A stretch of DNA of 45,277 nt from assembly GCA_019787685.1 (NCBI GenBank), contig JAHNUO010000082.1, forward strand, positions 1-45,277, given 5' to 3'. The position numbers and the translations under genes are program-made. This stretch comes from Chiua virens (taxonomy: Eukaryota > Basidiomycota > Agaricomycetes > Boletales > Boletaceae). A model generated the notes under the pieces. It worked only from the letters and a program-made list of their open reading frames with translations. It was not told where the DNA came from and did not search any database. The first letter of the stretch is position 1. Each line of letters begins with the position of its first letter. Below, in pieces: positions 35,104 to 39,044 of this stretch.

Positions 35104-36675
35104 ATGAAAAGGCTTATAGCTCGCCTCCCGTGCTATCGATCCAAGGCTCCTGCGAGACCTTTCGCAGAACCTCCCATAGAACAATTCCCACCAGAACAAC
35201 CCCCCGTAGAACAATCCCCTTCAGAACCATCCCCCGCGGAACAATTCCTCGATGAACAATCTCTTGAAGAATCATCCATAGAATCACTCGGATCACTCGC
35301 AGAACAATCACTCACAGAATCATCCGCGGAATTATCCGTAGAATCACTCGAATCACTCGCAGAACTTCCCAGTGCAGAATTTATGCAGATCGACAGCATC
35401 AGAAAGAAATTCGGACGGTTTAGAATCCTTATCGTCGGCCGGGCCAACGCTGGGAAGACCACGATACTCAAGCAAATCTGTAACTCTACGGAAGATCCAG
35501 TGATCTATGATCCACGCGGAAAAAAGGTCTGCTTGAACTTCATGCGACAATATCTGTGATGATGAAGGCGTACTGATGGTCAGTAATCAGGTCAATCTGG
35601 CAAAGATCCAGGAATCCAAGGAGGTGAGTTGCATGGTTGTCCTTTATCAGTATCATTTGGTTGACACATCCCAAGCGCGGAATGCATGATATTGAGAATG
35701 AACTGGTCTTTCGAAGCAACCCGAATTTCATTTTTCATGACTCACAGGGCTTCGAAGCTGGGAGTATAGAAGAGTTTGAGCAGATGAAGCACTTTGTATC
35801 AGACCGTGCAAAGACAAGATTCCTCAAGAGACGAATCCATGCTATATGGTACTCAGGGGTAACAACATTTATGCCACACCATAATTGACATGTTGCTGAG
35901 TAGGTATTGTATTCCAATGGACCAATACCACCGGGCTGTGTTGGCTGCAGAGGAGAAGTTTTTTGGTGATTGTGACACAGGGAATGGTAAGACTTACAAA
36001 GATATAATGTGTCCTTTCTGATATTGTTTTCTCTTTGCACTGGCAGTGCCTGTTGTACTTGTATTCACAAAATGTGATGCACTCTTGTTGCAAGGGATTG
36101 CAGTCTTGACACCTGAGGAAAACATGCTACCTCAAGAGAAAAGGGTTGCAAAGGGACAGCACAATGCCAATATGTTGCTGAAAGAGAACCCTGCATGGGA
36201 GAGGGTACAAAGGATGAGATATCCACCAAAAATGTGTGTGGAGTTAAAGGGTATGTGGACATATATTCTGGATTGGTTGAAACTGATCTGAAATGAAAAG
36301 ACCTGCACAAGTCAAATGAGGGGTGTATACATCTCTTAGAAAGGACTGCAGTGGCCTTGGATGGAGAAGCATTGCAGATGCTGCTTGTGACTACACAGTG
36401 CACAAACCTCATGCTTTGCATTGAGTATGCTTTGAAAAGGTAATTAATGGGAACTGCATAACATTTTGGTTATATGGATTAAAATGTCTTACAGAGTTTT
36501 GATACCTTTCATTGTTGAGAGACATGAAAAGGATAAATCACTGACAGATACTAAACAGCAAGAGTTGGTGGAAGCAATTGGATCATGGTTTCCAAATGTT
36601 AAGGTGTGCAATCACCTATACAGTGTAAATGACAAACATGCTAAACAAAATCCCTCCCTGTTGTCTTATGCATAG
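35104..36675 (+). CDS. P-loop GTPase (AIG1/Septin-like G domain, basidiomycete type)
   Basis: Exons 35104-35526, 35591-35623, 35676-35848, 35904-35986, 36047-36250, 36301-36439 and 36495-36603 splice into one clean frame of 388 codons; introns are 50-64 bp GT-AG, several with CTGAT branch sites. Residues about 20-92 are a Pro/Glu/Ser-rich repeat region. The G1 P-loop is GRANAGKT (112-119), G3 is DSQG (174-177) and G4 is TKCD (245-248), so GTP binding is expected. Expanded families of such GTPases are common in agaricomycetes; their partners are unknown. If the last splice (36604-36675) is not used, the frame ends at TAG 36673-36675; if it is used, the frame enters the micro-exon array and the exon at 38713-39044. 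The upstream in-frame ATG at 35026 is an alternative start. Confidence 0.85.
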
Positions 36676-38712
36676 GGTGTAAGTTTTCTGATTATGAATG
36701 GGGTTCTGGAAGAATGCTCATCCATGGCCCTCTGTCTTGGCCTCTGTCCTCTCATTCACAGTTTGTAAGTGCTCTGATTGTGAATGGAGTTCCAGAAGAA
36801 TGCTCATCTATGCCTCTCTGTCCTGGCCACTGATCTCTCACTCATAGGGAGTAAGTACTCTGATTGTGAATAGGGTTCCAGAAGGATGCTCATCCATGCC
36901 CCTCTGTCCTGGCCTCTGTCCTCTCATTCATAGGGAGTAAGTGCTCTGATTATGAATGGGGTTCCAGAAGGATGCTCATCCATGCCCCTCTGTCCTGGTC
37001 TCTGTCCTCTCATTCATAGTTTGTAAGTGCTCTGATTGTGAATGGGGTTCCAGAAGAATGCTCATCCATGCCCCTCTGTCCTGGCCTCTTTCCTCTCATT
37101 CATAGTTTGTAAGTGCTCTGATTGTAAAGTTCCAGAAGGATGCTCATCTATGCCCCTCTGTCCTGGCCTCTGTTCCCTCATTCATAGTTTGTAAGTGCTC
37201 TGATTGTGAATGGGGTTTCAGAAGGGTACTCATCCATTCCCCTCTGTCCTGGCCTCTGTCCTCTCATTCATAGGGAGTAAGTGCTCTGATTGTGAATAGG
37301 GTTCCAGAGGGATGCTCATCCATGCCCCTCTGTCCTGGTCTCTGTCCTCTTATTTATAGAAAGTAAGTACTCTGATTGTGAATGAGGTTCCAGAAGAATG
37401 CTCATCCATGCCCCTCTGTCCTGGCCATTGTCCTCTCATTCATAGGATGTAAGTGCTTTGATCGTGAATGGGGTTCCAGAAGAATGCTCATCCATGCCCC
37501 TCTGTCTTGGCCTCTGTTCTCTCATTCATAGTTTGTAAGTGCTCTGATTATGAATGGGGTTCCAGAAGAATGCTCATCCATGCCCCTCTGTCCTGGCCAT
37601 TGTCCTCTCATTCATAGTTTGTAAGTGCTCTGATTGTGAATGAGGTTCCAGAAGAATGCTCATCCATGCCCCTCTGTCCTGGCCTCTGTCCTCTCATTCA
37701 TAGGATGTAAGTGCTCTGATTGTGAATGGAGTTCCAGAAGGATGCTTATACATGCCTCTCTGTCCTGGTCTCTAACCTCTCATTCATAGTTGGTAAGTGC
37801 TCTGATTGTGAATGGGGTTCCAGAAGGATGCTCATCTATGCCCCTCTATCCTGGTCTTTGTCCTCTCATTCATAGTGGGTAAGTGCTCTGATTGTGAATG
37901 GGGTTCCAGAAGAATGCTCATCCATGCCCCTCTCATTCATAGTTTGTAAGTGCTCTGATTGTGAATGGGGTTCCAGAAGGATGCTCATCCATGCCCCTCT
38001 GTCCTGGCCTCTGTCCTCTCATTCATAGGATGTAAGTGCTCTGATTGTGAATGGGGTTCCAGAAGGATGCTCATCCATGCCTCTCTGTCCTGGCCACTGA
38101 TCTCTCATTCATAGTGGGTAAGTGCTCTGATTGTGAATGGGGTTCCAGAAGGGTGCTCATCCATACCCCTCTGTCCTGGCCATTGTCCTCTCATCTATAG
38201 GATGTAAGTGCTCTGTTTGTGAATGGACTTCCAGAAGGATGCTTATGTGCTGTTTTATGATTTCTTTAATAATATTCATTATAGATGGTATGTATTCCAA
38301 ATCTATCATCTCTAAGTCTGTGAGTTGTTGTTCTAACATCTTTCAGGATGTGAGCTTCTTAGACACTCTTTTTACTCACTTTAATTTTTCAATATTTCTG
38401 TTCCTATTCCTCTCAATTAGAAGGTATGAGTGATTTTTTGATTTTTCTCTTATATTGACTTTTCATTTGACAGGAGGTTTGTGGTGCCTTTTAAATAATA
38501 ATATTATTATTATGTTAATATCACCTTTACAGATAATGGCTTGTTCAGGTGTATGTTCATTTTGTTTTGGTGTTCTCATTCCATTATTTTGATCAATTTA
38601 CAATATAACAAGCCCTCTACTATTTCCTCAAATGCATTCCCTCACTCCACATCCATTGTAGGTCCACTGATTTCTCAGTGATTTCTACCTCATATTGCAT
38701 TCTTTCATTTAG
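36604..38712 (+). other. micro-exon array: introns separated by 3-nt exons
   Basis: Starting from exon 7 of the GTPase, 24 consecutive intron-like units (GT...AG, 50-83 bp) are separated by exactly 3 nt. The 3-nt exons start at 36676 GGT, 36762 TTT, 36848 GGA, 36934 GGA, 37020 TTT, 37106 TTT, 37188 TTT, 37274 GGA, 37360 AAA, 37446 GAT, 37532 TTT, 37618 TTT, 37704 GAT, 37790 TTG, 37876 TGG, 37943 TTT, 38029 GAT, 38115 TGG, 38201 GAT, 38285 ATG, 38347 GAT, 38421 AAG and 38474 GAG. None is a stop. A 16-nt exon (38533-38548) and a 164-bp intron (38549-38712) follow. Whether any micro-exon is used cannot be told without RNA data. Confidence 0.6.
36679..38284 (+). repeat. 86-bp tandem repeat whose unit is an intron
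   Basis: About nineteen units, mostly exactly 86 bp (83-bp intron plus 3 nt); one has 82, one 67 and the last, degenerate one 84. The unit starts GTAAGTGCTCTGATTGTGAA and ends TCCTCTCATTCATAG, then 3 variable bases. Divergence between units is concentrated in the 3-nt spacer and at scattered sites; GTAAGT and the terminal TAG/CAG are kept in every unit. Confidence 0.95.
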
Positions 38713-39044
38713 TCTTCTTTGGAACATACTCCATGGATAAAAGCACTTCATCTGGGCATTGGTCAGTTTTCAGTAACATTCAATGGCCATATTCACTTGC
38801 ATTTGTAGAAATTCCCATCATCCTAGAACATGCCTTCTTTTTACACCAGCAAGGTATTGAAGACCCAATCACAATAGCAGCAAACATTTATGAATCATCT
38901 GGAACAATCCATAAAGTCAACAAAGCAATCTCTGAGCTTATTCCTCAATACAAATTTGAGGATCAAGAGAAAATGACACAGTTCATTATGTGTATGATTT
39001 CCCAGAATCTTATTTGTGAGCCATCTGCCCTTTCATCATTATGA
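38713..39044 (+). CDS. terminal exon after the micro-exon array
   Basis: An open frame that starts after a good acceptor (TTTCATTTAG) and runs 110 codons to TGA 39042-39044. Joined to the 16-nt exon ending in one extra base, it is in phase with the array and with GTPase exon 7. The sequence (EIPIILEHAFFLHQQGIEDP, then ANIYESSGTIHKVNKAISEL) looks like a folded helical domain, but I recognise no family. An internal ATG at 38733 could start an independent short gene. The segment contains no CpG, yet has no stop. Confidence 0.5.

Follow-up and report, generated by a model that had tools for sequence, protein, structure and literature searches.

In the micro-exon genes of schistosomes many short, frame-neutral exons contribute to a variable protein, and in the zinc-finger minisatellite of PRDM9 the units are alike save for a few diversified codons, while their number and order vary. 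The codon-sized microexons of Tuber were reportedly first described by Iotti et al. 2012. Later reports describe in Tuber melanosporum an expanded NACHT-ANK family that is diversified via multiple, or tens of, alternatively spliced codon-sized microexons, and they also mention 3-bp microexons in the sensor domains of NLR proteins (PMC4986451, PMC10197012, PMC3689799). In PMC4986451 the repeats (WD40, ANK, TPR) of Podospora NLR proteins are likewise presented as units that are alike save for a few diversified codons and that vary in number and order, and fungal introner-like elements are presented in PMC4457414 as similar introns occurring in many copies. Here we describe an array of tandemly repeated introns, separated by exons of a single codon, within a GTPase gene of the basidiomycete Chiua virens (Boletales). 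The stretch of DNA that was analysed, called here the window, comprises 45,277 nucleotides of contig JAHNUO010000082.1 (assembly GCA_019787685.1), and all features discussed below lie on its forward strand. We are fairly confident that 23 one-codon exons and their introns within this gene are spliced into a linker that connects the GTPase domain to a conserved C-terminal region, and the comparison of sequences makes it very likely that such coding chains of one-codon exons occur throughout a hypervariable family of GTPases.

The Chiua arrays appear to work like the schistosome micro-exon genes, and the likeness is one of working only: in schistosomes the exons are longer and the introns form no tandem repeat. 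As in PRDM9 and the Podospora NLR repeats, the Chiua units are alike except at the diversified codon; there, however, the repeat unit is coding, whereas in Chiua it is intron save for one codon. With introner-like elements Chiua shares the possession of many like introns, but in Chiua these stand in tandem, at one position and in one family (in the sample checked). The closest parallel are the nank genes of Tuber, which, as reported, share with Chiua an expanded family whose protein is diversified by tens of 3-bp exons (in Chiua, by sequence, 17-80 of them in 28 of 30 loci). The differences are that the Tuber genes, reportedly subject to alternative splicing, encode ascomycete NLRs that carry ankyrin repeats, whereas the Chiua genes encode basidiomycete GTPases whose linker is a separate part and comes with a minisatellite of 86-bp intron units; Pfam finds no NACHT or ANK domain in the window protein, which differs in this from the Tuber type. 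The Chiua arrays may therefore be regarded as a remarkable variation on a theme already known, and we claim no homology with the nank genes. The initial annotation had known of no fungal array of this sort, a statement that the codon-sized microexons reported from Tuber contradict (PMC4986451, PMC10197012, PMC3689799); our literature search found this case and, among the papers listed, no report from Boletales, with most subscription papers and preprints outside its reach, so that absence from print is not shown.

Tandem Repeats Finder (TRF) delimits an 86-bp tandem array of 18.6 copies at 36664-38243, in which, according to a site search, the 86-bp unit consists of an 83-nt intron and a 3-nt exon. 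The window contains 19 AG-NNN-GTAAGT sites, from 36674 to 38199, and the 18 spacings between them equal 86 in 16 cases, with one of 82 and one of 67. A 27-base unit core, allowed up to three mismatches, has 19 matches in the window and none in 100 shuffles, which excludes chance. The initial annotation had stated that every unit keeps its donor and acceptor, and this is borne out: GTAAGT forms the first six bases of all 19 repeat units and is the donor of 19 of the 20 chain introns listed for the window, whose acceptor ends are ATAG in 18 cases and ACAG in two. The chain is preceded by a 72-nt intron (GTGTGC...GCATAG, 36604-36675, splice model), and then come the 19 one-codon exons between GTAAGT...AG introns (36676-38203, site search and splice model), here given in order with their first bases: GGT (36676), TTT (36762), GGA (36848), GGA (36934), TTT (37020), TTT (37106), TTT (37188), GGA (37274), AAA (37360), GAT (37446), TTT (37532), TTT (37618), GAT (37704), TTG (37790), TGG (37876), TTT (37943), GAT (38029), TGG (38115) and GAT (38201). 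The array had initially been thought to extend to 38284, but the chain goes on to 38476 via four further introns, one of them half repeat (38204-38284) and three without repeat sequence, and after each of them stands a one-codon exon (38204-38476; ATG 38285-38287, GAT 38347-38349, AAG 38421-38423 and GAG 38474-38476; site search and splice model), and several paralogs have chain ends of the same kind. The proposed tandem of complete introns with one-codon exons is thus real and larger than claimed, with 19 sites and four further exons.

Genome-wide searches reveal a large family. The 48.3-Mb assembly (136 contigs) contains 52 matches to the exon preceding the array at E <= 1 and 70 matches to the exon with the TKCD motif at E <= 0.001, both counts including probable alleles on separate contigs. 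The array unit has at least 1008 BLAST matches (40 of 98 candidates scored), and a 19-base core is found at 1797 places with up to two mismatches, as compared to 14 for the reversed control, and at 1029 places exactly. With 52 matching exons and more than 1000 unit cores, a large share of the diversity resides in differences between the copies of the gene. All 48 array places sampled from the more than 1000 matches adjoin an exon of the GTPase family, and where any of the 44 NACHT places in the genome shares a contig with one of the 52 GTPase exons, more than 37 kb separates the two. For the analyses below 30 loci were read, window included, and L009, the probable allele of the window copy, was left out of the exon counts; the longest chain, with 80 one-codon exons, is that of L020. 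Locus L017 contains at 1708-2056 a nearly empty site, with one 3-nt exon between the GTPase and C-terminal parts, which is useful as a model of an ancestor or of a deletion. In the contig pairs C26/C8, C27/C6 and C82/C11 the exon matches are similarly spaced (C82/C11 alone was aligned), which suggests that the assembly retains parts of both haplotypes of a dikaryon.

Chain exons were picked by splice-site score, with codon information unused and with 3-nt exons only. The resulting 874 exons from 29 distinct loci include a single stop (TGA, in L014), as compared to 78 expected from base frequencies and to a mean of 74 and a minimum of 52 in 1000 within-locus shuffles. In the joined chains, frames 0, 1 and 2 contain 1, 3 and 74 stops, respectively; the low figure for frame 1 is taken as an effect of composition, so that frame 2 provides the sole informative contrast. 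Neither TAA nor TAG occurs among the 1029 exact cores. When the gap length was left free in the search, acceptor and GTAAGT were 3 nt apart in 733 of 735 cases, with 2 and 5 nt in the remaining two and 0 nt in none. Introns of lengths other than 83 fall into the classes modulo 3 as 123/113/75, and with a unit of 86 nt and intron lengths in all three classes the repeat unit does not qualify as wholly coding. Diverged arrays keep their splice sites close to the consensus: that of L020 has GTAAGT in 68 and ATAG in 71 of its 79 introns. The 19 array codons of the window contain no stop, which by our estimate is not significant for a single array, as the expectation is about 9% per codon and the significance comes from the family. 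Stop avoidance and 3-nt invariance, together with the conserved in-frame flanking exons and the cDNA-like contigs of relatives described below, support a coding linker and favour the initial proposal that the frame-neutral one-codon exons encode a short variable linker.

Variation is concentrated in the codons. Among 15 arrays that contain ten or more 86-nt units, the three exon columns have entropies of 1.53, 1.50 and 1.10 bits on average, as compared to a mean of 0.12 and a maximum of 0.40 bits for the intron columns, in agreement with the earlier remark that the 3-nt spacer is among the most variable parts. Pairwise differences per base in these arrays range from 0.001 (L011) to 0.185 (L027) for introns and from 0.517 to 0.674 for exons. 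At one extreme, the 32 introns of L011 contain one substitution in 2656 nt and enclose the codons GGT, GAA, GGA, TGG, TTT and AGA (exon difference 0.517). The comparison of units and paralogs thus reveals a homogenised unit with variation focused in few codons. Residue composition differs among 25 arrays (G 1084 vs a permutation maximum of 507), with alphabets such as F/E in L033 and L034, Q/L/E/R in L020, K in L031 and Y/A in L016, and the predicted linkers may have distinct physical characters. In L033 and L034, F and E partly alternate (FEFEGFEFEEFERF in L033), and the predicted linker of L020 is Q/L/E/R-rich across 80 residues. Almost one codon is used per amino acid in the one-codon exons: Tyr is encoded by TAT 73 times and by TAC never (44 and 14 in flanking exons), Phe by TTT 70 times and by TTC once (75 and 61 in flanking exons), Gly by GGA in 161 of 169 cases and Leu by CTT in 105 of 123, while Arg uses two codons (CGA 59 and AGA 27 of 88) and Glu has GAA 73 times and GAG 21 times. 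Third-base C is found in 1 of 874 one-codon exons vs 477 of 2820 codons in flanking exons. Splice-site constraint, loss of CpG at C-GT, or spread from a small number of founder codons are possible causes of this dearth and of the one-codon lexicon.

The spliced window model comprises 1581 nt and encodes 526 amino acids in one open frame, with no internal stop; it consists of seven GTPase exons, the 23 one-codon exons and four downstream exons, with junctions chosen by us from the sequence and its homologs. The GTPase part, delineated by the stop-free splice model, Pfam and protein matches, spans 35104-36603 (exons 35104-35526, 35591-35623, 35676-35848, 35904-35986, 36047-36250, 36301-36439 and 36495-36603) and ends with ...GSWFPNVK. 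The predicted linker junctions read WFPNVK-GFGGFFFGKDFFDLWFDWDMDKE-IMACSG, and all one-codon exons of the model are in phase 0, so that any subset of them keeps the frame. Downstream, the splice model places an 18-nt exon, IMACSG (38533-38550), a 45-nt exon, PSTISSNAFPHSTSI (38613-38657), a 49-nt exon, SSLEHTPWIKALHLGI (38713-38761), and a last exon of 236 nt (38809-39044, also detected by tblastn), which encodes the conserved C-terminal region EIPIILEHAFF... and ends with the TGA stop at 39042-39044. The array had been assigned to the end of the gene; since the gene continues to 39044, the array lies inside it. MMR_HSR1 is the sole Pfam domain above its own cut-off in the window protein, and barely so (22.3 bits vs 21.9), while a relative's protein, P0004, falls slightly below it with 21.8 bits; the P-loop GRANAGKT and the TKCD motif read in the window translation identify a P-loop GTPase, and the GTPase part has 542 protein matches at E <= 0.001. 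The N-terminal coding part includes at 35168-35261 a degenerate 15/30-bp repeat, rich in P/E/Q, and a similar P/E-rich stretch, of different length, is present in the models of further copies (for example P0007).

The C-terminal exon was matched by tblastn in 21 of 24 loci and in four of six shorter pieces. Among the 25 loci that possess it (window and L009 counted), the first small exon was found in 24 by a pattern fixed at 18 nt, the second in 22, with lengths of 45, 48, 51 or 54 nt, and the third, for which the pattern was strict, in 16, with lengths of 46, 49 or 52 nt; all observed length differences among paralogs preserve the frame. As queries, two C-terminal regions returned merely 2 and 6 proteins.

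Comparison of closely related copies illustrates how the arrays change. L009 is 97.7% identical to the window over 6423 nt and then 95.7% over 1458 nt, and is probably an allele of the window copy. L031 and L035 are 98.6% identical over 2403 nt of the downstream flank and have the same consensus intron; their linkers are K-rich with 31 residues in one case and P/Y/G-rich with 21 in the other, and 6 of 20 aligned codons are alike. In two further pairs the flanks are likewise similar and the consensus intron is shared: the chains of L025 and L029 (98.3% over 2632 nt) comprise 57 and 39 codons, with 25 of 36 aligned codons alike, and for L013 and L014 the figure is 13 of 26. The differences between L033 and L034 consist in a gain of units and single codon changes. 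Of 13 arrays, four show linkage (p < 0.05) of codons to variants of the neighbouring intron downstream and three to those of the intron upstream, and the effects are small; L019, a 14th array, contained too few units for this comparison. Turnover seems to proceed in jumps of units or blocks.

Among the best 120 of the 542 protein matches no Chiua virens transcript was recognised; the relatives, on the other hand, contribute short contigs labelled 'jgi' or 'lgn' by source, of which those marked 'lgn' are probably Logan assemblies. Six of these (P0004, P0121, P0091, P0122, P0105 and P0071; 1.1-2.3 kb), selected for their clear linkers, encode a whole or partial GTPase followed by a linker that starts after WFPH/WFPN, has a restricted alphabet and differs from contig to contig, and in all but P0071 a C-terminal region follows. 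Their length and open frame suggest that they are cDNA, and their linkers may derive from one-codon exons. P0121 reads WFPHTK-EKELLWLLGGLEEELLLERKRDRERN-...NLDE, and LDE also ends 6 of the 30 Chiua chains. Identity between P0091 and P0122 is 13/34 in the linker and 234/284 outside, and between P0004 and P0121 it is 13/40 and 172/239, respectively. As far as WFPNTK, P0071 corresponds to gene P0074 of Pisolithus tinctorius; it then continues into a Q/E/Y-rich linker that is absent from the annotated model.

Several observations weigh against coding chains of one-codon exons or against their proposed mode of change. Four NCBI models of Chiua virens (P0001, P0003, P0005 and P0007) end before or just past the array start. 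The chain holds one exon in L017 and two in L023, and the C-terminal exon was not found in 5 of 30 loci, namely L012, L018, L023 and the 5-kb pieces L036 and L037. The chain finder misses some exons (in the window it returned 21 vs our 23), and five units with TGA exist among the exact cores genome-wide, two of them in distal L015, beyond its chain. Among the relatives, the linkers of P0017, P0022, P0123 and P0126 are less unusual in composition, P0038 and P0052 stop shortly past WFPHF, P0033 has an unrelated tail, and the linkers of relatives could come from ordinary exons. The array introns of the window and L009 differ by 20 substitutions and a 4-nt insertion, and their codons by none. Finally, the weak linkage between codons and introns is not predicted by simple copying of a codon with its neighbouring intron, a process that we reject on this ground. 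Codon-targeted hypermutation, which we also reject, finds no support in the unchanged codons of the window and L009 or in the scant synonymous variety.

The truncated NCBI models and the contigs P0038 and P0052 would fit a non-coding minisatellite that leaves the transcript as one long intron (36604-38532), and tandem repeats are common in introns. Such an intron, however, predicts neither stop avoidance (1 vs 74-78 expected), nor variation focused in 3 nt, nor the invariance of these 3 nt (733/735), nor a variable linker in the contigs of relatives; stop avoidance and the constancy of the gap lead us to reject it as the principal explanation and to consider it very improbable. We give equally little credence to a burst of introner-like elements that split an ordinary coding exon at each codon boundary. 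It would account for like introns between unlike codons, but introners reach many genes, whereas the 48 array places sampled from the more than 1000 matches all adjoin the one GTPase family, for which reason we do not adopt this origin as the main explanation; it also gives no rationale for the exact 3-nt spacing, and the near absence of third-base C sets the one-codon exons apart from the other, ordinary coding parts of these genes. The suggestion in the initial annotation that the units are recursive splice sites, i.e. steps in the removal of one long intron, is less probable still. A donor does stand close behind each acceptor, but recursive sites join AG directly to GT, while none of the 735 gaps is 0 nt and the intervening 3 nt avoid stops; this explanation is likewise rejected as the principal one.

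A different relation holds for the possibility that the codons are mainly alternatively spliced, with unit skipping giving mixed linkers from each array, as is reported of the Tuber nank genes. The common phase of the window exons, by which any subset would keep the frame, speaks for it, as does the reported precedent of Tuber (PMC4986451, PMC10197012, PMC3689799), whereas the donors, mostly consensus GTAAGT (19/20 in the window and 68/79 in L020), are suited to constitutive inclusion. We regard predominant alternative splicing as possible but rather unlikely; it is compatible with coding chains of one-codon exons and not their opponent.

If the chains are coding, splicing would join the codons, one residue per exon, into a gene-specific linker. 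Unequal exchange between like introns could add, remove and shuffle codons, with the introns serving as the repeat for reshuffling; concerted evolution would homogenise the introns, as for fungal NLR repeats and PRDM9, while selection would maintain the differences between codons. The linker might then be a recognition surface, perhaps for self/nonself or for a partner, as proposed for hypervariable fungal NLRs. Taken together, this amounts to heritable peptide-writing, in which the cassette for each residue of a recognition linker is a codon, taken from a lexicon with hardly more than one codon per amino acid, with an interchangeable intron, recombination between like introns rewrites the peptide in about 50 GTPase gene copies and between alleles, and splicing assembles the residues and may add isoforms. 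We offer this broader scheme tentatively and consider it somewhat more likely to be wrong than right.

If confirmed, the arrays would provide up to 80 consecutive residues (in L020) from 80 separate exons, and an extreme test of the spliceosome on 3-nt exons between like introns. They would also add a mushroom, with a protein of another class than that in Tuber, to the cases in which codon-sized exons diversify what may be a recognition protein, and so point to a way of making hypervariable proteins which is overlooked in genome annotation. The evolutionary question they pose is how the introns remain alike while the intervening codons do not.

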